24,847 bases of DNA from a virus. The DNA lies in IMG/VR virus record IMGVR_UViG_3300034198_005829, positions 1 through 24,847 of that record; one strand, 5' to 3'. The translations under genes and the position numbers were made by a program. Shown piece after piece: positions 6,546-24,581 of the stretch. The notes below the pieces were generated by a model, which did no database searches, was not told the origin of the DNA, and was given only the letters and a program-made list of their open reading frames with translations. Each line of letters starts with the position of its first letter. Within the stretch, counting starts at the first letter, position 1.

Positions 6546-9194
6546 ATGCCTTCTCAATTTGGACAATATCAAGGCGGCATCAAGGGAGTCCAAGGACTTG
6601 CAGAAACTGGTGCTAACATAGGCAAGACTCTTCAACAGGGTATGTCTTCCTTTGGCTCTTCAATGGCTGAAGGCATAAAGGCTTATAATGAGAATCAAGC
6701 CAAAGACCAAGTACTTCAAGAAGAAGCCAAAGCATTAGGAATGCAGATTCAACAGTTTGCGGCTCAGTTTGGAGACTCTCCAGAGCATAAGCAATTTGCA
6801 GATTCGCTTCAGCCTTATATCCAGCAGTTAGCCAAGGTTCCGTCTATGTCTCTCACTCAGAAGATGGGTGCTGTGACTGGCGTTAAAGCGGCCTTTGGCA
6901 ATATTGGTCAGCAATTGCAAGTGTTTGAGATGATGCGTAAGGAGCGTATGGCTAGAGACATGAATGCGGCTAGGGGCGGTGTCAGAGAGTTCGATGAACA
7001 GACTGTTCCGACTGCCATCATTCCGTCTGGCAAGTTGCCTTATTTCTACGGCAAGAACTACACAGAACAAGAAAGCGAACTTGTTAGACTTACCAATGAG
7101 GCTAAGGCTAAAGGTGCTAATGTTGACCTTCCAAAAGTTCTTAACGATTGGAGAAGCGGACTCAAGGCTAACGCTATGTCCAGACCAGACCTTCCTCCGC
7201 AAATCAAGGAGGCTCTTGTTAAGCAGATTGACGCTGGTGAAGGACTCACCGACAACATTCAGACTGACCAAAGCGGAGTCACGGATTACGCCAAGGAAGC
7301 GGAGATGTACGAGAAGACGAGCACATCGGTCAAGGAGCAACTTGCTCCTCAGAAGGTTGAAGCCCCTGTAAACAAGGGTACTGCTCCCGACAAGGCTACC
7401 GAACAGACTAGGTCTTTAATTACTGACACTATCTCTAAGTTAGAAGGCATGAGCAAGACGAAGGAAACTCTGTCAGATTCTGAGTTCAACAAACTTGTCG
7501 CTCAAGACCCTGCTCCGTCTAGATACACTAAGGTTGCTAACCTTGAAACTCAAGGCTGGAAGCGAAGCGTTGATGACAAGGGCAAGGTTTCTTGGTCTAA
7601 GGAGACAGAAAACAAACAAGTCAGCGATGCTCTTGCTATCTATAAGGGCGAACTGGATAAGTTAAATAAGCCTACAAAGGAAGCAGAAAGAGCAACCAGA
7701 GAAGAATCCGACAAGAAGGAACTAACAGAAATTGATTCCCTTCTTAAGAGCACACAAGAAAAGATAGATTCTGGAGAATCCTTAAGTATGGGTGAAAAGG
7801 AAAAGTTGCTGGATGGTGCGGCTAGATACACAAGACAATTTGGAACTTGGCTTGGAAAGCAATCCGCTATGGATTCTGCACGAACAATTAGCGGAGAGAT
7901 TACCGATGAGGTTGCTGACCGTCATATGGAAAGTGTAATTTATGGTAATGGTGCAAATACATCGGTTGCTGATAATGTGAAAAACTTTGCTATTGAAGGC
8001 ATAGCATCAAGCCCTGCTGGAGTTGCATTAGGAATAACTAATCCTTACGCTAGAAAACTCACAGTTAACGAGACCAAGCGACTTGAAGCGGCTTACGAAA
8101 GACTTAAAACAAAGAAGGCTGTTGAAATGGAAAAGGCTGGAGTGAATTCAACAGAGTTAATTGCGGCTCTCAATACCAGAAAAACTCAGTTACAAAATTC
8201 TATTGCTACAGGAATTAAGGCTCCTACTGCGGCTGATATGTCTAAGGCTCAACAGGCAACTGCGGCTGAACAGCCTAAGCCAGAACAAGAGTATACTCTG
8301 ACGAATCAGTACAATATGACGCTTGGAACGACTACAGGCCAAGTTGCTACTTCCCTTGAAAGCAAGCGTAAAGATATGAAGGCTTTCTTTCAGAACAAGT
8401 ACGGATATATCCCCGCTTCGTTTGAGGAATCATTTAAGGCTACTTATCCCGAAGCCAACTTCAAGACAATGGAAACAGCATATGGTGCGTTCATGTGGGA
8501 TGGCAAGGACTGGAAGCAAATCCAGATGAAAGAATATAAGCCTCCGTCTCGCAAGGAATTGGCTGAAGAAAAGGCTGTTTCGTTTGGTAAGTTACAACCC
8601 GACTCCAGCATTGATATCAATGAGTTCGGTGAACTTGTGCCTAACTCTGGCGTGTATGTTCGTGGTATCTTTGGAGGAACTCCAACAGAAGCGTTTAAAT
8701 TCAGAACAGATATGCTAGAAGGCTCTAATGCTAAGAAAGCAGTAGCCAGACTTACTGAGATTAATGACATGGTCGGTGAGTCTATGCCTTGGAACTCTAA
8801 AGTCTGGGGCGAAGCCAAGGCTCTCCTTCCTCAGATTAAGGCTGGTCTCAGAACTGACATCATTGGTGTCGGTACAGTTTCTAACTACGAACAAGAACTT
8901 ATCAACGATGTTGTGGCTGACCCAACAAAGTTCTGGTCTCTTGAGGCTTCCGATAGGGCTAAAATTGCCGTCATTATGGACAAGATTAGCAATAAACTTG
9001 TTCAAGCCCCCGCTAACTATGGTCTTGAGGTTAGGATTGCTGGCAAGCGTAATGAAGAACTTGAAAGAGGCTTCAAGATGGGCAGGGCTGGCAAGTCTAA
9101 ATTAGAACTTGATTTCGAGGCTAGAGGTGGCAAAAAGGGTGTTGGTCTTAACTGGAACTTATCTAACAAAATTCCAGACGCTCTTAAAAACTAA
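6546..9194 (+). CDS. Large internal virion (ejection) protein, gp15-like
   Basis: This 882-aa protein starts with a small-residue-rich segment (GLAETGANIGKTLQQGMSSFG). Long stretches of charged helix and probable coiled coil follow, with KEAERATREESDKKEL near residues 378-395. The C-terminal third is more globular. There is no signal peptide and no enzymatic motif I can recognise. The place between a Gln-rich ejection protein and a giant multidomain protein matches T7 gp15 (747 aa), which forms the periplasmic part of the DNA-ejection channel. It starts 5 bases after the previous stop without a Shine-Dalgarno sequence. Another possibility is a scaffold-like virion protein, but the order favours ejection. 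Confidence 0.58.
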   Translation: MPSQFGQYQGGIKGVQGLAETGANIGKTLQQGMSSFGSSMAEGIKAYNENQAKDQVLQEEAKALGMQIQQFAAQFGDSPEHKQFADSLQPYIQQLAKVPSMSLTQKMGAVTGVKAAFGNIGQQLQVFEMMRKERMARDMNAARGGVREFDEQTVPTAIIPSGKLPYFYGKNYTEQESELVRLTNEAKAKGANVDLPKVLNDWRSGLKANAMSRPDLPPQIKEALVKQIDAGEGLTDNIQTDQSGVTDYAKEAEMYEKTSTSVKEQLAPQKVEAPVNKGTAPDKATEQTRSLITDTISKLEGMSKTKETLSDSEFNKLVAQDPAPSRYTKVANLETQGWKRSVDDKGKVSWSKETENKQVSDALAIYKGELDKLNKPTKEAERATREESDKKELTEIDSLLKSTQEKIDSGESLSMGEKEKLLDGAARYTRQFGTWLGKQSAMDSARTISGEITDEVADRHMESVIYGNGANTSVADNVKNFAIEGIASSPAGVALGITNPYARKLTVNETKRLEAAYERLKTKKAVEMEKAGVNSTELIAALNTRKTQLQNSIATGIKAPTAADMSKAQQATAAEQPKPEQEYTLTNQYNMTLGTTTGQVATSLESKRKDMKAFFQNKYGYIPASFEESFKATYPEANFKTMETAYGAFMWDGKDWKQIQMKEYKPPSRKELAEEKAVSFGKLQPDSSIDINEFGELVPNSGVYVRGIFGGTPTEAFKFRTDMLEGSNAKKAVARLTEINDMVGESMPWNSKVWGEAKALLPQIKAGLRTDIIGVGTVSNYEQELINDVVADPTKFWSLEASDRAKIAVIMDKISNKLVQAPANYGLEVRIAGKRNEELERGFKMGRAGKSKLELDFEARGGKKGVGLNWNLSNKIPDALKN

Positions 9195-9199
9195 TCACA

Positions 9200-12100
9200 A
9201 TGGCTGAACTTTACGCTAAACCCTATGAAGTAATTGATACGGGTTATAATCCTCAGCAGACCCAACAAGGCGGTCAAAATGCTGAAATGCAATCCTATCT
9301 TGAGTCTCTTCCCCCAGAGGAAAGACAGAAGGCTATGGAGCGTATTAATTCTCCGCTTAGTGGCGAGGAATTAGCATTGATGGCTCAGTCTGGACAGAAA
9401 GCACCGACATTAGAAGAATACGCTGAGATTGAAAAATGGCACAAAGGTCACGAAATTTCGTTTATTGATGGTATTGGTAAAATAGCCGAAGCGGGAGGGC
9501 AAGTGATGAGTGACATCACGAATGCTATGGGTTCGTTTGTGAATAATCCTTCTGATGCTACATCAAAGATGCCAGCCACGGCTGTCGAGGCGTTTGCTCA
9601 AGGCACAAGAAACTTCTATGGGATGCTGGCTCAGTCTGGCAATCCCGATTCTGCTTTATTCAGAGTCAAGGACTTCCTCAATGGCACAGGAAGAATTGAG
9701 GATAGGTATAATCAGTACATGGAAGCCCTTAAATTCAATAGGGATTCCGCTGACCTCGCTGAAGGAAAGCAAACCCTTGTCATGGACAAGGACATGATTA
9801 ATCACGAAATTACACAGGCAATGGCGTACATCGCTGACCCTACCCTGTTCATTCCTTTTGGTAAGGTTGCTTCTACTGGTCTTCGTGCTATTGGTCTTGG
9901 CGAAAAACTTACTATGGCTGGGGCTAGGTCTGCGGCTATCAAGAACGGTATCCTTGGAAATACACTCAAATGGGGTGCTGGTCAACCTCTGGAGTTCCTT
10001 GGTGGTGCTGTTAGAAATACCATTGATTATGGATTAGAGAAGGCTGGGGCGGCTTTTGAAGCCACTACTGGCATGGAGGCTAAACAGTTCGCCCAGACTG
10101 CCAGAATGTCTGGAATAGGCTTTTCTGCTTCAGCGGTTGCTGGTCACGCAGTTCCTTACGCTTCTACGATTTCTGATGCCTACATTGTAGGTTCCTCTGC
10201 CAAGGGTTTCGGCGAGGCTCTTACCCTCATGGGAGAAACTATGTCCAAGAATAAGTTTGGACGAGGTATAAACTCTTGGGCGGCTGAGTCCCTTGAACAG
10301 GCTGAAAAGAACGGCGTTGCCCTAAGCCCTCATGCCAAGGGTCTTCTAAAGACTTTAAACGCTGTTGACCCGCTCTTTGCCTACGGCTGGAACGGTCTTG
10401 AAGGTGCGGCTGAAGGTGCGTTGATTGGTGGCGTATTAGGTTACGCAAGCGGTGGCGAGGAAGGTATGTACAGCGGCATTGGTGCTGGCGTCGCCCTCGG
10501 CGGCGTAGGTGCTACCGCTGGCAAGGCTGTTGCTGATGTGACAGGTGGTACTAATGTCGCCAGACGAGCCGTCCAAGCCAAGATGGTCATCGAAGGTCAC
10601 AAGGTAACTAACCCAGATAAGGCTATGTTCTTCCAAGCCATGCAGACTACTGCTGAGGCTAGAGGACAAGATGTAGACTTAGTTAACGGCATCATTGCTG
10701 GTATCGATAAGGTCGCTCCAAACTTTGAGTTCCATGCCCTCACTCCAGACCAGTTTAAGATTGAGGCTATTCGCAAGGGATATAATCCGTTCACGGGTAA
10801 GTTCGCTGAGTTTACGGCATTAAGCAATGAGTTCGGCTCAGATAGGGCATCTAAATCTAAGGCGATGTATATTCTTCGCTCAGTAGGCGGTGACTTTGTT
10901 GGCGATAGCAAGTCGTTCCTTGCGGCTCTCAAAAAGGCTTCTGCCAAGGATTCTACTAATCCCAATAAGCCAGCGGGTAACATTCCTGCCAATTTAAGAA
11001 AGTACACGGATGTCGCTAAGACATTTGATAAACTCACCAAGACGCAACAAGACGCTGTCCTAAAGGAAATTGACGGACAGGCTAATTTTTCAAAGGAACT
11101 AGGCGGTAGCACGAAACTCCGTGAACACTATGATGCCCTTTCTTGGTCTGAGGCATGGACTGATTCATTGGTCAAGAAGTTTGAATCTGACAGAGAAGGT
11201 GCAAGAAAGGATATCATTGATATGCTTTCACGGGAAACCAAGAAGAACGGTGAACGCACACTCAAGGGTCAGAGATTAGTAGACAAACTGACGGCTGAAG
11301 GATTCTTAGACAGAGACGGCAAGTTGCTCCGTAAGCGTAATCTGCATCAAGCGGATATGACGCTTATTGAGTTCGCTTCCACCAAGGGCGGGGTGATGAG
11401 AAGAGATGCTGATGGAAAGACGCATATGTACATCAACCTAAATAACATGGGTAGTGAGACATTCCCGCACGAACTCTTCCATACAATCATGCGTGAGTCT
11501 CCGATGAAAGACCATTTCACGAAGTCTTTGATTCAGAAACTTGTTGGCTCGTTTGACGCTCAAGGCAACCTCGTCAGAAACGGAGAAGTTAATGTCAACC
11601 AACTCCGCAAATTCTTCAAGAAGTATATCGACCTCACTTCCTTCGATGAAGACGGCACGATGAATCCTGTTAAGGCAGAGGAGACCATGAAGGCTGTTGA
11701 GATTGCCCTCGGTGAGTACGAACAGTCTGGCAAGAACAAGAAGATTTCGGCAGAGTCCAGAGACCTACTTGAGAAGTACACAGAAGAGTTCGGTGCTTAT
11801 TATTTTTCGCATTGGCTGATGGGTCGCAACAGAAACACCCTGTTCTTTGGTGGCGAACTCAAGGGCATTGAAGGTCTTGTCGAAAGAACCAAGGATTCGT
11901 TCATGGACTTCTGGCAGTCTAAGATTTCCAAGGCTAACCCAGAGTTCGATTTCTCCAAGGGACTCAATGAATCGTTCAGTCGCTCCAAGGGTCTTGGTCG
12001 CATCTCTTCGATGGACTACTACATGAGGGACATGGTCAGAGCCGCCTCTAATGCCAACAGAGACGCTTTCAAGCCCGACTCAATGACCCTTGAAAACCTC

Positions 12101-15100
12101 AGAGATTTTGAGCAAAGCAACGGTCTTAGAAACCTCACAAACAAGGATGGCAACAGAAGACTTAATCCTCCCGAAAGAAAGAAGCAGAACCATGCTCTTG
12201 GCAAGGAAGGATTCAAGATTCTCAGCGGACTGGATAAGAACCTCCGCACATCCAAGGACACAATCGATGAGAACGGAAAGCCTGTCATCACGGGCAGACT
12301 GTCTGAGGCTGAATTAGACGCTCTCGTCAAGGGCGGTATCGTTCCTAGGGCTTGGGCTGACAAGGTCAACCAAGGCTATGCGATGCTTGACGGCACGGTC
12401 TCTAATGTCTACTCGGCTGGCTATCTTGGTTTCTCTGAGCAGACCACGGATGCATCCTACCCAAGACTATACGGCAAGGATGTTGCGTTCAAGAACCGCA
12501 AGGCTATCCTCTTTGACATTGAGACCAAGATTAAGGCTGACGGTACATTCTATACGCTTTTCCATAACATCGACTTGGCTGTTGTTGAACAGCGTGGCAA
12601 CCACCTCTGGCAGAACACAGACTACAGAAACCTTTGGAATGGCGACAGGGGTGCTATGGAGGCTGATTTCTTCAGATACATCAGCAACGCTTCCAAGGCT
12701 TCTACGGACACTAAGAAGTTAGACTCTGCGGCTCTTCTTGAGAAGGGCGATGGTCTTGGAGCACAGCGTAGAGATGTCCTTCAGCAGATGGCTGGCATGG
12801 CTCTCCAGACTGGCGATGCCTACAAGCATCAGCCTATCGCTGTCATCCCAGAGGGCATCAGACACAGCGTAACCACATTTAACATCGATGGTCTTACTAC
12901 TCCCCGTGTCGAACAGGGTGCTAGATACGACATCGACATGAAGAACGCTCACAAGTTCATCCGTGAGAACTGGCAACCCGATGACATGAGACAAGAAAAA
13001 ACTCCTGTTGGAAGGGTGCTTACTCACGAATCTGGATTCAAGTTCACTCAAGATGCCAACGGAAAGGTCTCTGCTTACACATCTGTTGGTGCTAAGATTG
13101 GCACATTTAACAGCATAAAGGAAGCAACTGTCGCTGGCAAAAACAAGTTCAACGATGTTTACAAGAACCACGATGCTGAAGTAAAGAAGGTCTTTGAAAA
13201 AAAGAACGAGGAAGCAAAGCGATTCCAAGCCTTGGATGAAAACGAAAGACAAGAAGCCATAAGAAACGGAGACCTGTTTTCTCTTGAGCGTGTAAAAAAC
13301 TTCATAGGAAACAGAAAGGTTCTTCGTCAGTCCAGAGAGGAGTTCATAATTTCTAAGGTCATTGAAGCGGTTGAAAACCCAGAGATACTCAAAAACTCAG
13401 TCACAAAAGCATTATCTTCGACAAATAAAACTGCGATTCAATATAGAAAACTTCTTCAAGAATTTGTAAAAGTAGGCGAAGAAGAAAAAAGATTAGCAAA
13501 TGAACATGGTGTGTTATATCAACAATGGCTAAAAACAACAGATGCTGACAAAAGAAGTATGCTTAGTCAAAAAATGACTGAGAACTCTGAAGCCGCCCAA
13601 GTACTTCAAGTTCAAAGACCAAAGGCTAAGTTTAACTTAGAAAGATTTGAGTTAGAAATGCAAAAAGAAAGAGTTGAGGCATTCGTAGAACTTCAGAATT
13701 CTATGTCTCATCTGACTCCAGAACAGTTTACCGAAGTTGTAAAGAATGAGTTAATGCTTACATACAATCCAGAACTTGGAGGAAAATATAAGGCTATCAA
13801 AAAGGCTCACTCTGGGATTGCTGAGACATTGTTTGCAAAAGAGTTTGACGACCAGACACAGACTGGAGTTCCAATTGTAGTTGTTGGAACACACGGAACT
13901 AGAAATGTAGAGTTAATGATTTCTAGAATACTGCTAGATGAAAAACTTGGTTCTCGATATGGAACAGCCGCAGGAGGAAAAGCGTACTCTTCTGACCTTG
14001 GTCACTTTATGGGTGGCTCTACCGACACCTCTTCCTCATATTCTGGAATTCCTCCTTCAGCATTTACTGAATATGCAAAAAATGGTATTCCTGTTAATCG
14101 GCTTGCTGAGTTCTTAGGTGATGGTGCTTTCTTAAATCCTTATGGATTCCCAGAATCACATCCTGTTTATAGGCTTAACAAGGCAATATTTGAACTTAAG
14201 AAAAATAGCCAAAAGGTTAACGATGCCCTTCTTTTTAAAGCACAAGATGCATATTTGGAACTATTTGACAAAGGAGATAAACTTTCCTACGATGACTTGT
14301 TGGCAAAGGCAAGAGAAGTGCAAGGTATTTTATCACACCTAAAGGATATTAGGTATATTAGTGACAATGCACACAGAAATTTAATTAATCTTACGGTAGA
14401 AGCATTTGATAAGTCCGTAAGAAAAGAAAGACAAAATCGAATCAGTAGAGATGAATTCAATGATTACCTTAACAATGCTGAGGTTTTAGTTATAAATCCT
14501 ATGTTTTCTCCTTTAGATGAAATGCGTGTTTCTGTTGATGAGTTACTTGGGGGAGAATTAAAAAACCAAGACAAGGAAATAAAACTTCCAGAAGGAAAGT
14601 CTATTAAAGTAAAGTACGACAACGAACTGTACAAAGAAGTTATTAAGTTGTCGCAAGAAACAATAAATACATTAACTGACACTTTTAACGGCTGGATGGG
14701 CAAGACCAACTTTGAAAACAAAGTAAAGATGGTCATTGGTGGAAAAAAGTTTTACGAAGGTTCTAGTACCGTAGAACCTGCTAAAACTTGGATGCAAATC
14801 AGAATGCTAATGGCTTTTGATAATCCAAAGGTTATCATAGACCCAAGAGGATATGATGAAAGCAAGTTAGCACCTCAAATGATTCAAGCCATCAACGAAG
14901 GGCATGATGGTATTATCTTTAAGCGTCTACGAGACGGAGGCTCTGAGGATGATATTTACATTCAACTCAAGGGCAATCAGAACAAGATACTTACTATTGA
15001 TACATCCTTTGACTCACAACACATTCCAAGAAAAGATGAAAATGGTAATGTTCTTAAAACAGGAAGAGATATTGGTTTAGCCCTTCAACCAGATGAGGTT

Positions 15101-17845
15101 GATGCACCAAAGCAAGTCCAAGGCATTAAACTGGACATGACGAAGGCTTATGATGTCTTCAGACAGGAATACGAAGAGTCTACTGGTCAGTCTTGGTCGC
15201 AGGATAAGTTCATGCAGAGAGCCAGAAACTGGCAGTTCTTTGGTGACGAGAATGGCTTTGTAGCCGTCAGACCTCAGCGTTCTGGCTTCGTGAAACTGGT
15301 CGGCATGGCTGGTGACAACAAGTCTAAACTTCGTGGCATCCAGCAGATTCAACAACAGGGTCTGCCTATCTGGGGCATGGTAAGCAAGGACATCAAGGAC
15401 ATGGCGGTCAAGCGTGGTATGCGTGAGCCGAACATGATTGAGCGTACTGTGCTTAAACAGGCTCTGAACTCTGCGGCTCTTGGCGATGCTGAGATTCTTG
15501 GTTACACATCCGACAACGGAGTTAGACTCAGATACCCAGATATCGGTGAGGTCACTAAGTACATGATTGGTAGCCCAGAGTACTACCAGAAATTACGCTC
15601 TGCTTTTGGTGAACAAGTCAAGAGCAAGATTGGATTCCAGCCAGCAGAGGGCGGTGCTGACAGCGTAGCCACAAGAAACAAGATTACTCTGGATACTAAC
15701 GGGGTGCTGTCCAAGTTAGGCATGAACCTAAAGGATAAGACCAAGATGGAAATCTGGATGAGGCATCTGACGGATGACCCTGCTACAGCCTTGGAAAAAA
15801 TCAGAGAAGAAGGTCTTGTCGGCTGGATGAAGAACAGAGCACAAAGCGTTATTGATGCCGAAGTGGAGTCTTGGGACGCTGGATATAAAGAATTAAAGCA
15901 TCAGCAAAAGGTTGCTCAACAGTTTTTAGACAAAGTTGAATCTGGCAAAATTGACACGACTAATTTCATGCCAGCGGAGGGAGACAATTACAGGGGTTCT
16001 CACAAAGCACCTTCTGGAGAAAGTGGAGAAGGCTCTCTTGATGCGATGGATAGAACATATCCAGAAGACATCTACTCTGTCAATGGTGCTAGATACTATG
16101 GCACAAGAGAAAAAAGTGACGCTGAGATGATTAGCATCATTCAAAATCTTCGTGGCAAACCAGATGAATTAGTCTCTGTCTATAGAGCCGTTCCTAAAGG
16201 CACTAAGGGAGAAATCAATGCTGGAGATTGGGTTACTCCTTCCAAGGCTTATGCTCGCCTTCACGGAGGTCGCTGGGAGGAAGGCATGAGAATAATCGAG
16301 AAGAAAGTTCCTGCTAAAGAACTCTTTACAGAAGGCAATTCTATCTACGAATTTGGCTGGAGTCCAAAGAAGAAGTCACGGGCTGATGTTCTTAGAGAAG
16401 AAATCGCAAGCGATGAGAAGTGGATGGAAAGAAGAAGAAGCCAAGCCCCTGTTTTGTGGGAAACAAAAGGAAGCAAAATTTACAGACACAGGATGGACAT
16501 AGAAAGAAGGATTTCTTCCCTTAAGTACGAACTCAATCGAGTTGAACGAGAAGGAAAGACATCGTTCCAGCCAGCGGAGGGTGTCAACGCACCTGTCAAT
16601 GAGGTAAATAGAAACTTTATCTTAGATACAATATCTGGCAATGAAAACAGCCGTCGTGCCTTGGAAGAAGGCATGAAGCAAGCCAAGGACAGAAAGCAGA
16701 ACTTCATAACAATAGATAACATCAACCCAGAATTGCTTCGTGGCGAGGCTGTGGTCATGCACTCACCCGACAACGCTGGTGTTGAGCCTGTCCAGATTGG
16801 TAGGTTTACTGTCAACCCTAGGGGCGGTATGCGTTTTCCGTCAGAAAACCCGACATTAGGTTGGGCTGGAGTTAAGGCTGGTCTTGGCAAACAAATCAAC
16901 GACAACGGAAACTATAACGCTGACAAGGGCAAGGGCTGGAGTTCTGGCGTTGGTCTTATCAAGGGCGAGTATTCTAAGATGAAGGGAACGCACATCGGTC
17001 TTGAGGTGTTCCTACGCAACCTACAGAAATATACGGACAACAATGTCTTAACAGAAAGACAGACAATCCAGATTTTAAAGAATGGTCTTGGTGACATAGG
17101 TGACACTAAGCGTCCGCTTGACACCATCGTTGAGGGCATCCTTGCCAAAAGTGCCAAGCACGAACCCCCGTATACAATCGATGGAAGGAGAACGGCTATC
17201 GAAAAAATGACCGAGACTGACGGCTCTGCATCGCTCTGGAAATATCTTCAGTCTGACCTCACAAAGTTAGAGTCACAAACTGATGGCTTCACTTCCGAGG
17301 GTGTCACAAACGCCAAGCAGTTTATCAAGGCTTTACTTGAGCCTATGTATGAGGCTGTCTCTGACCCCCTCACAAGACACGCTAAGGTTGGAGAGGTGTA
17401 CGGGTATCTGATGTTCAGAAGTCCTGTGACGGAGCCTATGTCTGATGTTCACCCTTCATACAAGTATGCCGTACAGCCAGAAAAGGGAGGCAGTCCTGTG
17501 CAGTTAGATATCTTGTCTACGCCTATGAGTGCTAGGAAGGCATTTACAAACAGGATTACCGCTGGCGAGGTTTCCCCCCTTCCAGAATCTGAGGCTGGGT
17601 TTAAGGTATCCACGGGTCAGAAACATATCCCTACAATGCGTGGCACATTTATGCCAGCGGAGTTCACGGAGTTTAAGTCTGAGCAGTCACCCACGGGTCG
17701 CATCCTGCGTAACGCCAAGGGCTATGTCATCATGTTAGCCAACAATAAGTTCAGAGTCTACAATCCCTCTAAGGCTATCATCGGTGTCTACGGCTCAGAG
17801 GAAGAAGCCAAGAAGCGTATCTACAAGGAAATCCCTAAGCGATGA
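9200..17845 (+). CDS. Giant polyvalent internal virion protein with peptidase and ADP-ribosyltransferase domains
   Basis: At 2881 aa this is about twice T7 gp16 (1318 aa) and takes its position as the last ejection gene. Residues 1-400 are helical. Residues about 395-450 are very Gly/Ala-rich (EGALIGGVLGYASGG) and may enter a membrane. HELFH at 757-761 plus EE at 862-863 indicate a zinc metallopeptidase. Residues about 1000-1260 resemble a block I have seen in large phage proteins. A short unit at 1271-1317 recurs at 2833-2878. Residues about 1320-1560 are charged helices. HGT at 1565 to DGII at 1903 looks ART-like. A clearer ART has R2329, S2348 and E2384. FxPAE motifs occur at 2146, 2256, 2456 and 2817. 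This matches the large polyvalent proteins described in phages, which are injected with DNA to act on the host. I see no lysozyme motif. Confidence 0.75.
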   Translation: MAELYAKPYEVIDTGYNPQQTQQGGQNAEMQSYLESLPPEERQKAMERINSPLSGEELALMAQSGQKAPTLEEYAEIEKWHKGHEISFIDGIGKIAEAGGQVMSDITNAMGSFVNNPSDATSKMPATAVEAFAQGTRNFYGMLAQSGNPDSALFRVKDFLNGTGRIEDRYNQYMEALKFNRDSADLAEGKQTLVMDKDMINHEITQAMAYIADPTLFIPFGKVASTGLRAIGLGEKLTMAGARSAAIKNGILGNTLKWGAGQPLEFLGGAVRNTIDYGLEKAGAAFEATTGMEAKQFAQTARMSGIGFSASAVAGHAVPYASTISDAYIVGSSAKGFGEALTLMGETMSKNKFGRGINSWAAESLEQAEKNGVALSPHAKGLLKTLNAVDPLFAYGWNGLEGAAEGALIGGVLGYASGGEEGMYSGIGAGVALGGVGATAGKAVADVTGGTNVARRAVQAKMVIEGHKVTNPDKAMFFQAMQTTAEARGQDVDLVNGIIAGIDKVAPNFEFHALTPDQFKIEAIRKGYNPFTGKFAEFTALSNEFGSDRASKSKAMYILRSVGGDFVGDSKSFLAALKKASAKDSTNPNKPAGNIPANLRKYTDVAKTFDKLTKTQQDAVLKEIDGQANFSKELGGSTKLREHYDALSWSEAWTDSLVKKFESDREGARKDIIDMLSRETKKNGERTLKGQRLVDKLTAEGFLDRDGKLLRKRNLHQADMTLIEFASTKGGVMRRDADGKTHMYINLNNMGSETFPHELFHTIMRESPMKDHFTKSLIQKLVGSFDAQGNLVRNGEVNVNQLRKFFKKYIDLTSFDEDGTMNPVKAEETMKAVEIALGEYEQSGKNKKISAESRDLLEKYTEEFGAYYFSHWLMGRNRNTLFFGGELKGIEGLVERTKDSFMDFWQSKISKANPEFDFSKGLNESFSRSKGLGRISSMDYYMRDMVRAASNANRDAFKPDSMTLENLRDFEQSNGLRNLTNKDGNRRLNPPERKKQNHALGKEGFKILSGLDKNLRTSKDTIDENGKPVITGRLSEAELDALVKGGIVPRAWADKVNQGYAMLDGTVSNVYSAGYLGFSEQTTDASYPRLYGKDVAFKNRKAILFDIETKIKADGTFYTLFHNIDLAVVEQRGNHLWQNTDYRNLWNGDRGAMEADFFRYISNASKASTDTKKLDSAALLEKGDGLGAQRRDVLQQMAGMALQTGDAYKHQPIAVIPEGIRHSVTTFNIDGLTTPRVEQGARYDIDMKNAHKFIRENWQPDDMRQEKTPVGRVLTHESGFKFTQDANGKVSAYTSVGAKIGTFNSIKEATVAGKNKFNDVYKNHDAEVKKVFEKKNEEAKRFQALDENERQEAIRNGDLFSLERVKNFIGNRKVLRQSREEFIISKVIEAVENPEILKNSVTKALSSTNKTAIQYRKLLQEFVKVGEEEKRLANEHGVLYQQWLKTTDADKRSMLSQKMTENSEAAQVLQVQRPKAKFNLERFELEMQKERVEAFVELQNSMSHLTPEQFTEVVKNELMLTYNPELGGKYKAIKKAHSGIAETLFAKEFDDQTQTGVPIVVVGTHGTRNVELMISRILLDEKLGSRYGTAAGGKAYSSDLGHFMGGSTDTSSSYSGIPPSAFTEYAKNGIPVNRLAEFLGDGAFLNPYGFPESHPVYRLNKAIFELKKNSQKVNDALLFKAQDAYLELFDKGDKLSYDDLLAKAREVQGILSHLKDIRYISDNAHRNLINLTVEAFDKSVRKERQNRISRDEFNDYLNNAEVLVINPMFSPLDEMRVSVDELLGGELKNQDKEIKLPEGKSIKVKYDNELYKEVIKLSQETINTLTDTFNGWMGKTNFENKVKMVIGGKKFYEGSSTVEPAKTWMQIRMLMAFDNPKVIIDPRGYDESKLAPQMIQAINEGHDGIIFKRLRDGGSEDDIYIQLKGNQNKILTIDTSFDSQHIPRKDENGNVLKTGRDIGLALQPDEVDAPKQVQGIKLDMTKAYDVFRQEYEESTGQSWSQDKFMQRARNWQFFGDENGFVAVRPQRSGFVKLVGMAGDNKSKLRGIQQIQQQGLPIWGMVSKDIKDMAVKRGMREPNMIERTVLKQALNSAALGDAEILGYTSDNGVRLRYPDIGEVTKYMIGSPEYYQKLRSAFGEQVKSKIGFQPAEGGADSVATRNKITLDTNGVLSKLGMNLKDKTKMEIWMRHLTDDPATALEKIREEGLVGWMKNRAQSVIDAEVESWDAGYKELKHQQKVAQQFLDKVESGKIDTTNFMPAEGDNYRGSHKAPSGESGEGSLDAMDRTYPEDIYSVNGARYYGTREKSDAEMISIIQNLRGKPDELVSVYRAVPKGTKGEINAGDWVTPSKAYARLHGGRWEEGMRIIEKKVPAKELFTEGNSIYEFGWSPKKKSRADVLREEIASDEKWMERRRSQAPVLWETKGSKIYRHRMDIERRISSLKYELNRVEREGKTSFQPAEGVNAPVNEVNRNFILDTISGNENSRRALEEGMKQAKDRKQNFITIDNINPELLRGEAVVMHSPDNAGVEPVQIGRFTVNPRGGMRFPSENPTLGWAGVKAGLGKQINDNGNYNADKGKGWSSGVGLIKGEYSKMKGTHIGLEVFLRNLQKYTDNNVLTERQTIQILKNGLGDIGDTKRPLDTIVEGILAKSAKHEPPYTIDGRRTAIEKMTETDGSASLWKYLQSDLTKLESQTDGFTSEGVTNAKQFIKALLEPMYEAVSDPLTRHAKVGEVYGYLMFRSPVTEPMSDVHPSYKYAVQPEKGGSPVQLDILSTPMSARKAFTNRITAGEVSPLPESEAGFKVSTGQKHIPTMRGTFMPAEFTEFKSEQSPTGRILRNAKGYVIMLANNKFRVYNPSKAIIGVYGSEEEAKKRIYKEIPKR
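10382..10549 (+). other. Glycine-zipper-like segment of the giant protein
   Basis: Residues about 395-450 contain alternating Gly and small residues (GVLGYASGG, SGIGAGVALGGVGATAG). This pattern is common in pore- or membrane-associated parts of phage ejection proteins. Membrane insertion is inference. Confidence 0.4.
11387..11914 (+). other. Zinc metallopeptidase domain of the giant protein
   Basis: Residues about 730-905. A beta strand with MYINL leads to a helix carrying HELFH (H757, E758, H761). A second helix about 100 residues on has YTEEFGAYYF, with E862 or E863 as likely third zinc ligand. HExxH plus a downstream Glu in an EExxAxxF context is the gluzincin-like arrangement seen in peptidase domains of phage polyvalent proteins. 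The substrate is unknown; self-processing or host proteins are both possible. Confidence 0.65.
13010..13150 (+). repeat. Internal protein repeat, copy 1
   Basis: Residues 1271-1317 begin GRVLTHESGF and end with a charged helix (SIKEATVAGKNKF). The order of strands and helix, and the GR(V/I)L start, match residues 2833-2878 at the C-terminus. The copies have diverged, so the match is at the level of pattern. Confidence 0.45.
13350..15075 (+). other. AT-rich block within the giant gene
   Basis: Hand counts give 18/60 G+C at 14161-14220 and 19/60 at 14401-14460. Flanking samples are 30/60 at 12961-13020 and 32/60 at 15361-15420. The reading frame stays open throughout. The block covers the coiled-coil region and the first ART-like region. 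Limits are approximate. Confidence 0.6.
13877..15034 (+). other. ADP-ribosyltransferase-like region of the giant protein
   Basis: Residues about 1560-1945. VVVGTHGT (H1565-T1567) starts a beta strand as in HGT/HGS-type ART-like domains, and AINEGHDGIIF (D1903) with a following beta strand resembles their C-terminal end. About 300 residues between them are longer than usual and probably contain an insert. No clear catalytic Glu is assigned, so it may be inactive or a different fold. Confidence 0.35.
15635..17662 (+). repeat. Four FxPAE motifs in the C-terminal part of the giant protein
   Basis: The motif F-(Q/M)-P-A-E occurs at residues 2146-2150, 2256-2260, 2456-2460 and 2817-2821. The nucleotide positions are 15635-15649, 15965-15979, 16565-16579 and 17648-17662. 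Three are followed by Gly. They bracket segments of 105, 195 and 356 residues that have unrelated sequences, so they look like boundary tags, not duplicated domains. Confidence 0.7.
15980..16384 (+). other. R-S-E type ADP-ribosyltransferase domain of the giant protein
   Basis: Residues about 2261-2395. Core elements are in the expected order: YRAVPKG with R2329, GDWVTPSKAYARLHG with S2348, and VPAKELFTEGNSIYEFGW with E2384. An upstream YRGSHKAP / YPEDIYS / RYYG stretch is typical of phage ART domains of this kind. There is no Glu two residues before the catalytic one, so arginine specificity is not implied. The target is unknown. Confidence 0.62.
17696..17833 (+). repeat. Internal protein repeat, copy 2
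   Basis: Residues 2833-2878, beginning GRILRNAKGY and continuing FRVYNPSKAIIGVYGSEEEA, form the extreme C-terminus of the giant protein. They correspond in pattern to residues 1271-1317. The unit looks like three or four strands plus one helix. Confidence 0.45.
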
Positions 17846-21521: not shown

Positions 21522-22268
21522 TTAGAAGGGGACTTCGTCTTGAGTGACGGCAGGTTCGGGGAGGTCACCGTTAGCGATAGCCCAAAGGCGTTCAGCCTCA
21601 GCCTTGACACGGAGGTCACGGGGGCTGATTTCGGTGTTGTCACCAAACGGCTTGGGCTTCCAGACATTAGCGAAGTAGTTGAGGTCTCCGAACTTGACGC
21701 TACGGTCAGCGGACTTCAGCGGGAGTTGAGAGAGGGGAGTTCCCTTGAGGTCTCCAAAAGGAGCAACGGCTTCTCCTCCAGCAACAGGCTTGGCTGAGGG
21801 GTTAGGAATGAACTTTGTCCCAGAAGCAGTCGGCTTGCTGACAGGCGTGATGTATTCCTTCTTAGGAGCAGTCTTAGCCACTCGGTCGGATTCCGCATCA
21901 TCATCGTCAGTTGCAACTCCAGCAATGGAAGCAAGGCTGTATCTACGGACATAAGAATACAGGCTACCCGCTTGCTGTCCAGACATACCCTTCTCAGCAG
22001 GGACGAGAGCATTGCACGAAAGCATACCTCCGTCTTCGTGGATGATGAGGTTACGGATACCAACGGCATCGATGTCACCGATTGGCATCTGGATGATTGC
22101 GAGTCCGTGCTTCTTGGCGAGAGGCTTAAGGGCAAGCAAATGGGCTTGGAGGGAGGCATAGCGTGACTTGTGGAATGGATTGTTGCTGTCAGCGTGGACA
22201 TCTTGGGCTTCAGACACGAAGGCTACTAGAGCCTTAGCAAGACTGACCTGTTGTTCGGGTGTGTTCAT
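21522..22268 (-). CDS. ERF-family single-strand annealing protein
   Basis: This 248-aa protein has the ERF signature: NNPFHKSRYASLQAHLLAL near residues 29-47, KHGLAIIQMP (53-62), an inner HEDGGMLSCN (77-86), and GSLYSYVRRYSLASIAGVA (101-119) followed by an acidic DDDD. ERF proteins anneal complementary single strands in phage recombination. A linker with Pro and Ala leads to a second part (about 170-235) with FGDLKGTPLSQLP, like the small domain at the end of some phage nucleases. The last residues are TQDEVPF, resembling the acidic tip of SSB proteins. The start at 22268 (MNTPEQQ) was chosen to fit usual ERF N-termini; 22298 is an alternative that adds ten residues. Neither has a Shine-Dalgarno sequence. 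Confidence 0.82.
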   Translation of the reverse strand: MNTPEQQVSLAKALVAFVSEAQDVHADSNNPFHKSRYASLQAHLLALKPLAKKHGLAIIQMPIGDIDAVGIRNLIIHEDGGMLSCNALVPAEKGMSGQQAGSLYSYVRRYSLASIAGVATDDDDAESDRVAKTAPKKEYITPVSKPTASGTKFIPNPSAKPVAGGEAVAPFGDLKGTPLSQLPLKSADRSVKFGDLNYFANVWKPKPFGDNTEISPRDLRVKAEAERLWAIANGDLPEPAVTQDEVPF

Positions 22269-22312
22269 ATTAGGGGATGAGTGAGAGAAGAATTCCATAG
22301 GTGATAGTAGTA

Positions 22313-22489
22313 TTACGAGAGGGGATGTGTGTCAACATCTCTTTGCAAAATAGTTCGGACATAATCTGAACGAGTCATAGAGATTCTTGTTGACACGGTG
22401 TTGAGGGATTTGAACAGCGACTTAGATACACGGAGTGTGAGCATAAGTTCGTGGTTGCGTGTGCGTTTCTTGGTAGTTGTTTTCTTCAT
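22313..22489 (-). CDS. Ribbon-helix-helix DNA-binding protein (58 aa)
   Basis: An open frame from ATG at 22489 (overlapping the endolysin TGA as ATGA) to TAA at 22313 gives 58 aa. A basic N-terminal arm (MKKTTTKKRTRN) precedes LMLTLRVSKSLFKSLN, which fits strand then helix A. MTRSDYVRTILQRDV fits the turn and helix B of CopG/Arc-type ribbon-helix-helix proteins. These dimerise and bind DNA through the strand, often to repress their own operon. It fills the gap between endolysin-like and ERF genes. No partner toxin gene is seen next to it. Confidence 0.72.
   Translation of the reverse strand: MKKTTTKKRTRNHELMLTLRVSKSLFKSLNTVSTRISMTRSDYVRTILQRDVDTHPLS
22329..22396. repeat. Inverted 9-bp repeat GTGTCAACA ... 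TGTTGACAC
   Basis: GTGTCAACA at 22329-22337 and its exact complement TGTTGACAC at 22388-22396 are 50 bp apart. Both are inside the ribbon-helix-helix gene and just before the ERF gene. Both contain the hexamer TTGACA on one strand. They may be operator half-sites, but two 9-mers in a coding region can also arise by chance. Confidence 0.25.
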
Positions 22490-22965
22490 CGGGAAAGGAT
22501 TTGGTTGGCTCTTGCGAGGATGCTTCTGCGTTTGCTGTCAAGGTAGAAAGACTTGTAGTTGAAGTCTTTGTTGTATGCACCTTGGAAGCCCATATTATAA
22601 GCCATATAAAGGGAGATAGGAGTGACCTTAATCTTAGAGTTGTTAATCTGTGTCTCAAGAATCTGTAAATACATTTTGGCTACGAGACGGCTGATAGTAG
22701 GGTCGCTGGAAAACTTCTTGTGGTTGTTGGAGAAGTCATCCCACGGGCTAAAGCCAGCACAGTCTTTGCGAGCATAACGCTGGCAGGACTCACGCCAAGA
22801 GGCTTCGTGCATCTGCCAAGCCCCAAGAGCCTTGCCCTTGTCTCCTACGGCATCGTAGTTGTAGTTAGATTCAACCATTGCCACCTTGTCTAAGAAATCT
22901 TCTGTGACGATGGACTTGGCTTCAGCAGAAGCGTAACTGAGCAGGAGAGCGAGTAGGCGTTTCAT
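22486..22965 (-). CDS. Secreted lysozyme / lytic transglycosylase-like endolysin
   Basis: This 159-aa protein starts MKRLLALLLSYASAEAKS, a likely Sec signal with cleavage after AEA. MVESNYN follows, with E32 as probable catalytic Glu, then DKGKALGAWQM (matching the G-x-x-Q region of SLT domains) and YNMGFQGAY near 125-133. This order fits the lysozyme-like/SLT fold that cuts peptidoglycan. Four Cys residues after the signal region would suit an oxidised periplasmic protein (two are certain, in ESCQRYARKDC). It is in the replication operon, on the strand opposite the holin. It is probably the phage endolysin, exported by Sec; an alternative is an early cell-wall-remodelling role. No Shine-Dalgarno sequence is visible. 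Confidence 0.75.
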   Translation of the reverse strand: MKRLLALLLSYASAEAKSIVTEDFLDKVAMVESNYNYDAVGDKGKALGAWQMHEASWRESCQRYARKDCAGFSPWDDFSNNHKKFSSDPTISRLVAKMYLQILETQINNSKIKVTPISLYMAYNMGFQGAYNKDFNYKSFYLDSKRRSILARANQILSR

Positions 22966-23018: not shown

Positions 23019-23687
23019 TCAACCGACCCCTACTGCCCTGTAATAATCCTTGAGTCTGCGGATGAGAGCAACGCCCGTCTCCTTGTCACGATTGTCGAAC
23101 CTGTCAAGCAGGGTCGAGCCGTTGAAGTTCGTGCTGATGATGGTAGCCCTACGGCTGGTGCTACGCTCGTCCACGATAGCGAAGAGGTCAGAAGCCATAC
23201 GCTGAGTCAGTCGCTCCTTGCCGAAGTCATCGAGGATGAGCAAAGGGCAGTTGATGAGGTAGTCAATAGCAGAGCCGTGCTTCTGCTCCTTAAATCCAGA
23301 CTCAATCGTAGTTTCTAATTTACGCATCGTGAGGAATTCAAATTTAAGTTGCTTGTCCTTTTTGGTTTCCTCAGCCCATAGACGCTTGATGATTTCCCAG
23401 ATGCCACGGGTCTTGCCCACGCCTGTCGTGCCGTGTAATAGTAATCCAGATACATCACCTTCGGGCATCCAGTCGAGTGCGGTTTGAATCTTAGGATGGA
23501 GGCGAGTCACATCCGTATCTAGAAAAATTTGAGGGATAGCAGGGGGTACGGTAGAGTCTACCAGACCAGCCAGCGTCACTCGCTCCATATCCAGATGCTC
23601 ACGGCAATGATGCCAGCGGATAAGGGAGTGGTCAGCCTTGGCAAACAACGCACCCCTACGACCACAATGACAGGCGATGTCGCTCAT
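23019..23687 (-). CDS. DnaC-like AAA+ helicase loader
   Basis: The start at 23687 (MSDIACHCGRRG) overlaps the upstream TGA as ATGA and has AAGGAG 8 bases before it, giving 222 aa. Walker A is GTTGVGKT (86-93), Walker B LLILDDFG (149-156), sensor 1 IISTN (183-187) and a possible arginine finger at RRL (210-212). These are characteristic of DnaC/DnaI-like proteins that load the replicative helicase. The N-terminus has CHC and HHC (C6, C8, H26, H27, C28), possibly a zinc site for contact with the helicase. It is two genes downstream of the initiator, as lambda P follows O. A longer reading to 23744 was rejected. Confidence 0.82.
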   Translation of the reverse strand: MSDIACHCGRRGALFAKADHSLIRWHHCREHLDMERVTLAGLVDSTVPPAIPQIFLDTDVTRLHPKIQTALDWMPEGDVSGLLLHGTTGVGKTRGIWEIIKRLWAEETKKDKQLKFEFLTMRKLETTIESGFKEQKHGSAIDYLINCPLLILDDFGKERLTQRMASDLFAIVDERSTSRRATIISTNFNGSTLLDRFDNRDKETGVALIRRLKDYYRAVGVG

Positions 23688-23902
23688 CGCTTGGTCTCCT
23701 TTTCGTAGACTTCCCATCCGTTGCCCGTGTAGGCACGAAGACAACAGTTTACATATTTATCATCCCACCAAGCAAGGATATGATAATCCTTATTCTCGAT
23801 AGTAATGTTTCCGTTAGAGCCACCCACGATGTTCTCAAGGATGTTTACGAACTTGTTGTCAGCCCAAGCATCAAAGCCTAGTCGATTAATTTCTTCTTCC
23901 AT
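23684..23902 (-). CDS. Small hypothetical protein (72 aa)
   Basis: This acidic protein has a helical start (MEEEINRLGFDAW), a beta-rich middle (NITIENKDYHILAWWDD) with a Trp pair, and adjacent Cys residues (VNCCLRAY). It has no membrane helix and no recognised motif. It lies between the initiator and loader genes, 7 bases after the former, and is coupled to the latter by ATGA. A role in replication is a positional guess. Confidence 0.6.
   Translation of the reverse strand: MEEEINRLGFDAWADNKFVNILENIVGGSNGNITIENKDYHILAWWDDKYVNCCLRAYTGNGWEVYEKETKR
23696..23701 (-). promoter_or_regulatory. Shine-Dalgarno site for the helicase loader
   Basis: AAGGAG on the - strand, 8 bases before the ATG at 23687. 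It decides between this start and the longer in-frame reading to 23744. Confidence 0.65.
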
Positions 23903-23909
23903 AGTGCTA

Positions 23910-24581
23910 TCAGAATGCTTCGTGGTCTCTGGCGGTCAAGACATTTGTATTACCTTTGCCAGATACTTGCTTAGGTTCAAAGAGACCCTGCCAGCCCTGC
24001 TTGATGGACTGCTCGATGCTGGCGATGGACTTGGCTTCACCCCACAGGACGAACTCCTTGCATTGAGCCTGTACGCTGGAGTCGGTAAGGGTCTTCTTCA
24101 TCTCCTTGCGATAGACTACCCAAGACTTCCAAGCCTTCAGAAAAGCCTCAGAGCCAAAGGGTAAACGAACAATCCACATCTGCTGTTGGACTGTATCTTT
24201 ATCTCCTTTATTATCTTCTTTGTTATATGTAGGCAATTTTTTGCCACCCCCCGTGGCAATATTTTTCCTCCCCCCTAGGCAATTCTTTTCCTCCCCAAGA
24301 GCCTTTACAATCGCAGTCTTCTCGACAGTACGGATGACCCTGCGACCATCGACATCGACACGGGTAATCAGATTAGCCTCATCGAGTTCCTGTAGGATGT
24401 TGCGTACTTGCCTCTCCCCTAGCCCAAGGTGGCGAGATAGGTAGGCGTTTGAGGCAAAGCACCCGTCATCGTTGTCAAGGGCTTCTACGACCCCGTAGAC
24501 CACCTTAGCGGTAATGCTGATGGTGGTGTGCTGGAAGACTCCAGCAGGAATCCAGACTCCCGTGAACTTAGGCTCGCTCAT
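23910..24581 (-). CDS. Replication initiator protein with winged-helix N-terminus (lambda O-like organisation)
   Basis: The start at 24581 (MSEPKFTGVWIPAGV) has GAGGA 8 bases upstream and gives 223 aa. Residues about 8-85 (ISITAKVVYGVVEAL, then SNAYLSRHLGLGERQVRNIL, then a wing around RVDVDGRRVIRT) form a winged helix-turn-helix as in phage replication organisers. Residues about 95-125 are a low-complexity Gly/Lys linker (GEEKNC, GGRKN, GGGKKLP) encoded by out-of-frame DNA repeats. The C-terminal 100 residues contain AWKSWVVYRKEMKK and are helical, probably for contact with the loader or helicase. The whole resembles lambda O: N-terminal origin binding, linker over the origin, C-terminal partner binding. 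Confidence 0.75.
   Translation of the reverse strand: MSEPKFTGVWIPAGVFQHTTISITAKVVYGVVEALDNDDGCFASNAYLSRHLGLGERQVRNILQELDEANLITRVDVDGRRVIRTVEKTAIVKALGEEKNCLGGRKNIATGGGKKLPTYNKEDNKGDKDTVQQQMWIVRLPFGSEAFLKAWKSWVVYRKEMKKTLTDSSVQAQCKEFVLWGEAKSIASIEQSIKQGWQGLFEPKQVSGKGNTNVLTARDHEAF
24191..24298. other. Candidate replication origin inside the initiator gene
   Basis: Three iteron-like repeats (24232-24298) sit beside an AT-rich tract at 24191-24230 (10/40 G+C by hand count), which is also strongly pyrimidine-biased on the + strand. This is the arrangement of lambda ori inside gene O, where iterons bind O and the adjacent AT-rich region melts. It is inference from layout. Confidence 0.6.
24232..24298. 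repeat. Three direct repeats with 23-bp period (iteron-like)
   Basis: Copies of 21 bp start at 24232, 24255 and 24278. The + strand consensus is GGCAATnTTTTnCCnCCCC. Copy 1 has TTTTTTGCCA, copy 2 has ATTTTTCCTC and copy 3 has TCTTTTCCTC in the middle. The spacing of 23 is exact between all three. The copies are read in three different frames of the initiator gene. Confidence 0.82.

Follow-up and report, generated by a model that had tools for sequence, protein, structure and literature searches.

Three dyad iterons and an AT-rich tract within an O-like initiator gene: a probable lambda-type origin in an uncultured phage family

The Initiator Gene and Its Neighborhood

The window analyzed here is a stretch of viral DNA of 24,847 nucleotides (IMG/VR record IMGVR_UViG_3300034198_005829), and the features discussed below are listed in Table 1. 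The gene of interest encodes a protein that matches PHROG 678 ("replication initiation O-like") over residues 28–221, that is over most of its length, as well as the Pfam family HTH_36. In an AlphaFold model made with relatives, the protein is composed of a winged helix (residues 7–87), a disordered linker (approximately residues 102–131) and a helical C-terminal domain (residues 132–195). The closest folds to residues 7–87 are those of Rep initiators (4pql, 5kbj, 4pt7, and 4pta), including a Rep-DNA complex, with Z-scores of 8.0–8.9 over 78–81 residues, which head the list yet are middling; we take these four to be RepA_N proteins. A sequence search of the PDB with the initiator gave no match below an E-value of 0.37, a search of genome contigs returned remote matches only (24–39% identity over part of the protein), and a DNA search of annotated phage records gave no match.

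Downstream of the initiator lies a gene for a DnaC-like helicase loader, for which the in-frame ATG at position 23687 is the more likely start than the TTG of the open reading frame. An earlier reading of this DNA, made from the letters alone and referred to below as the sequence-only reading, had described a winged-helix initiator that holds repeats, with such a loader two genes downstream. The O-like match agrees with the former, and the latter is right since exactly one small ORF separates the two genes. Of 48 relatives, 47 have the loader downstream of the initiator; in the other one, the contig stops 243 bp past the initiator gene. The same replication/recombination cluster contains a transglycosylase gene (SLT domain; 22486–22965, minus strand), with the loader gene on one side and the gene for an Erf-like annealing protein (21522–22298) on the other. 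Elsewhere in the window, a single ORF of 2881 aa (9200–17845, plus strand) and a neighboring ORF of 882 aa (6546–9194) have no Pfam match at an E-value of 0.01; their products are probably virion proteins.

Table 1. Coordinates of the features at the initiator locus.
Feature	Position	Strand	Basis or remark
Replication initiator, O-like; start ATG 24581, 223 aa	23910..24581	-	phrog_678, 3.7e-18; PF13730, 4.8e-09
Recognition helix, residues 56–68	24378..24416	-	helix in predicted model; covariation with iterons
Recognition-helix residue R60	24402-24404	-	
Recognition-helix residue N61	24399-24401	-	
Iteron 1, core dyad GGAAAAGAATTGCC	24278..24291	-	within the 21-bp copy 24276-24296
Iteron 2, core dyad GGAAAAATATTGCC	24255..24268	-	within the 21-bp copy 24253-24273
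Iteron 3, core dyad GGCAAAAAATTGCC (arms pair perfectly)	24232..24245	-	within the 21-bp copy 24230-24250
AT-rich tract with 12-bp sub-repeats, translated as TYNKEDNKGDKDT; presumed DNA unwinding element	24191..24230	-	G+C count; TRF period 12; codon bias in relatives
Intervening small ORF of 72 aa, no assigned function	23684..23902	-	
DnaC-like helicase loader, ORF from TTG	23019..23744	-	phrog_50, 4.9e-20

The Repeat Array and the AT-Rich Tract

Inside the initiator coding sequence, three tandem copies are spaced by exactly 23 and 23 bp, and this array has the highest tandem-repeat score in the window (90, compared with 45 for the runner-up; Tandem Repeats Finder). When the whole gene was redrawn synonymously, keeping the protein and taking codons from the phage's own usage, none of 2000 versions reached the observed repeat score of 24 (mean 12.9, maximum 20), and the outcome of codon shuffling was likewise 0/2000. 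Coordinates, tandem-repeat score and resampling therefore agree with the three 21-bp copies of the sequence-only reading. Beyond what that reading had noticed, every copy contains a hyphenated inverted repeat, GGCAA-N4-TTGCC, with a core of 14 bp. Exact matches to the pattern GGMAANNNNTTGCC occur in the window at the three iteron sites only. The arms pair at 4/5, 4/5, and 5/5 positions in the three iterons of the window; in relatives, pairing reaches as much as 15/15 when the three iterons are taken together. The spacers between the iterons (24246–24254 and 24269–24277 in the window) consist of G-runs in 75 of the 98 spacers of the window and its relatives and of C-runs in 12. Whatever the frame, these runs are translated into Gly or Pro, and they may thus keep the linker flexible however the iterons are read.

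Read along the gene, the array ends directly at the AT-rich tract, so that the tract lies 3' of the last iteron; its 40 bp contain 10 G+C, as had been claimed. It is built of repeats of approximately 12 bp (AAAGAAGATAAT). In relatives, Lys is encoded by AAA in 123 of 140 cases within the tract compared with 197 of 735 elsewhere, Asp by GAT in 133 of 134 compared with 143 of 392, and Tyr by TAT in 49/49, indicating that codon choice in the tract is held to A and T.

Conservation of the DNA Rather Than the Peptide

Three dyads are present at the same place in all 66 distinct initiator genes, the one of the window included, and in 57 of these 66 none of 150 resampled versions matched the gene's own score. 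The spacing is 23,23 in 40 and 22,23 in 25 of the 65 relatives measured (L116, whose array is visible but was mis-anchored by the script, was omitted from these counts). Hence the 23-bp spacing of the sequence-only reading is exact in the window but is not universal in the family. With a spacing of 23 bp, iterons 1 to 3 of a gene fall into different frames, and the frame of iteron 1 also differs between relatives. The 14-mer GGCAAAAAATTGCC occurs unchanged in all three frames, giving AKNCL, RQKIA, and GKKLP, from which it follows that the DNA is the conserved unit. The linker peptide, by comparison, varies among relatives while repeats and spacing are kept: following the G-runs or C-runs of the spacers, most relatives have a Gly-rich linker and some a Pro-rich one (e.g. 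Pro-rich in L033, with Pro-Pro in L020). The alignment of related initiators, which was the main test put forward in the sequence-only reading, thus turned out in its favor, and so did its claims that the copies encode different peptides and that selection acts on the DNA. To judge from these sequences, the linker peptide appears to be largely a by-product of the origin DNA.

Covariation of the Recognition Helix With the Iterons

The half-sites of the relatives fall into several types (GGCAA, GGAAA/G, TGCAA/G, TGCGG, CGAAG, and others). Among 49 representatives under 90% identity, all 29 with G as the first half-site base have Arg or Lys at residue 60 of the initiator, and all 20 with T (19) or C (1) have Gln. 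The outermost base pair therefore follows residue 60 in 49/49 cases, R/K60 going with G:C and Q60 with T:A or C:G; this dependence is a new observation of the present analysis. Covariation of residues 97–117 was set aside as trivial, because the iterons themselves encode these residues. Outside them, residue 60 is the best column, with a normalised mutual information of 0.75 compared with 0.45 for the next, and columns 62–96, which are nearer to the iterons, associate much less. Asn61 is the best column for base 5 of the half-site, and both residues belong to helix 56–68 of the winged helix in the model.

In a tree built from the N-terminal domain with the columns of residues 60 and 61 removed, the helix and the iteron trait each change seven times. 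The trait pairs on well-supported branches agree in 3/3 cases, which is too few for significance alone and leaves the covariation not fully freed from shared ancestry. For this reason the residue-60 rule was fixed in writing and new loci were then fetched. All 14 newly fetched family members obey the rule, even two whose identity is 43% and 46% and whose half-sites were previously unseen (TGCAC in L251 and GGATG in L260), and so do 4/4 distant loci (L263, L264, L267, and L276). Since several of the new sequences are close relatives of one another, the independent cases are estimated at approximately 12. Where Ser occupies the place of residue 60 (ISKTRVS type), other repeats or none were found and the rule is silent. 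On these comparisons, we lean toward the view that residue 60 of the recognition helix (R/K versus Q), helped by residue 61, directly sets the outermost iteron base pair, and that new origin types would arise through matched changes of helix and iterons. A search of the literature on helix-iteron covariation found only the work on PLE satellites considered below and an unrelated study of homeodomains.

GC Skew in Relatives

If replication is bidirectional and the leading strand G-rich, cumulative GC skew is expected to have a minimum at the origin. The strongest skew switch was located in 11 near-complete relatives: in 8 of them it is no more than 3 kb from the iterons, while 3/11 have no switch nearby; where the peak is clear, cumulative skew near the iterons is a maximum rather than a minimum. 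A difference in skew is still seen when one coding strand is taken by itself, and in two of the 11 relatives the signal is not significant. These relatives, drawn from G001–G012 (loci L156–L170 and L182–L198), are not independent, because ancestry and probably gene order are shared. The origin of lambda itself is unmarked by the identical measure. The skew check suggested in the sequence-only reading lends partial support, with a switch near the iterons but of polarity opposite to the usual one, and skew was dropped as a decisive test and treated as neutral. The contigs of G001, G002, and G005 end in direct repeats of 123–127 bp, which suggests that they are complete genomes of approximately 41–43 kb.

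Alternative Explanations

That the repeats are a feature of the protein, a repetitive Gly/Lys-rich linker selected as a peptide, could be argued from the translation of the stretch and from the fairly conserved peptide KEDNKxDKDT. A peptide repeat would hardly have a period that is not a multiple of three, nor would one 14-mer be read in three frames; the linker is predicted to be disordered and turns to proline in L033 and L020, and no synonymous version reaches the repeat score. Frame usage and synonymous resampling refute this explanation, to which we give next to no credence. It is also very improbable that the repeats are an operator, bound by a winged-helix protein that acts mainly as a regulator of the early operon from within its own gene, with replication starting elsewhere. 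The covariation of the helix demonstrates recognition but is silent on what it serves, repressors such as MepR also have the winged-helix fold, and the polarity of the GC skew is unlike that of a usual origin. Yet the best family matches are replication initiators and not repressors, a loader is encoded downstream, the repeats lie mid-gene and not at a promoter, the tract next to iteron 3 is conserved by codon choice, and the layout of lambda is identical in plan.

A further alternative concerns the code and not the origin: the association could stem from common descent and linkage, the N-terminal part and the linker moving as one block with no direct contact between residue 60 and the base. 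Block swaps do occur, as the window and L003 have near-identical C-terminal halves and different helix and iteron types, the iterons of L003 being of the form TGCGG-N4-CCGCA, and few of the tree pairs are well supported. A moving block would not, however, readily account for the much weaker association of columns closer to the iterons than residue 60, for the position of this residue in the predicted recognition helix, or for a rule that held in new sequences at 43–46% identity and below. We therefore regard linkage as an unlikely explanation.

A Probable Lambda-Type Origin Within the Initiator Gene

The reading that we favor, with a probability of about 0.92, is that of a theta-type, lambda-like phage origin inside the initiator gene, working with a matched helix-iteron module. 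The earlier proposal that iterons and tract form the phage origin is supported by the conserved repeats and spacing, the O-like gene, the loader in 47/48 relatives, and the covariation, including that in the new data. Its corollary, that the origin has shaped the linker, gains from a variable linker peptide and from iterons of the same sequence in different frames. Binding of the iterons by the initiator is likewise supported by the covariation.

The sequences themselves show the anatomy of the locus, its conservation at the DNA level, the covariation, and the synteny; from binding and dimer stoichiometry through melting and loading to the direction of replication, the course of initiation is what we infer. 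Dimers of the initiator would use their N-terminal winged helices to bind the three dyad iterons, and an O-some-like complex would form within the initiator's own gene. This complex would strain and open the adjacent AT-rich tract, the C-terminal domain would pass the site to the product of the downstream loader gene, and this DnaC-like protein would place host DnaB at the origin, while the disordered linker would accommodate iterons and tract in the coding sequence. As residues 60/61 and the half-sites change together, initiator and origin would constitute one self-contained specificity module. An origin would thereby be located for an uncultured phage family without a DNA-level match to annotated phage records. 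With approximately 66 natural initiator-origin pairs, several iteron types and a rule that is predictive for unseen cases, it becomes directly testable how an initiator and several binding sites shift specificity together; if the reading is true, origin specificity is a readable code carried within one gene.

Comparison With Known Origins

The origin of lambda lies in gene O and contains four 18-bp hyphenated inverted repeats, to each of which an O dimer binds, with an AT-rich region of 39 bp alongside (PMC6022878). In the O protein, a flexible linker joins the N-terminal domain, which binds DNA, to a C-terminal part that binds P (PMC6022878; PMC7466680). The window shares this plan: the probable origin lies inside the initiator gene (as also in Stx and P22-like phages), hyphenated inverted-repeat iterons with A-rich centers are directly followed by a tract of approximately 40 bp whose coding strand is rich in A, and the initiator has the same order of DNA-binding domain, flexible linker and presumed loader-binding part. 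It differs in having three iterons instead of four, other half-sites, spacers of G or C runs, and a DnaC-like loader in place of P; the iteron spacing in lambda is 20, 24, and 23. A profile comparison of the initiator with lambda O (hhalign) gave a probability of 0.5 over 24 columns, so that homology is not detectable and the likeness to lambda O would be one of working.

In PLE satellites of Vibrio cholerae, RepA proteins have a common C-terminal part, whereas their DNA-binding domain varies together with the origin and its iterons, and swaps proved that only cognate initiator-origin pairs replicate (PMC8263062). The covariation of DNA-binding domain and origin is thus common to PLE RepA_N and the window, and the nearest solved folds of the window's initiator are Rep initiators too. 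By contrast, the PLE origin lies between genes, its iterons are approximately 30 bp and the protein belongs to another family, and the passages of that study considered here give no single-residue rule (PMC8263062).

It is well supported that the origin of the window belongs among the already known initiator-embedded, lambda-type origins. Gene-embedded repeats spaced by 22–24 bp are found in Oceanospirillum phage GJ44, in the Pseudomonas phages Cruim01, Skulduggery and HU1 and in Escherichia phage N7, as well as in the O-like genes of Klebsiella phages. The five named phages differ from the window in iteron sequences and recognition helices, with approximately 30–39% identity over part of the protein, and several of them have a loader or helicase gene adjoining the initiator. 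The AT-rich tract of GJ44, CCATATATAACAAAGAAGATAACAAAGAG, is almost identical to that of the window, though the two initiators are only approximately 32% identical.
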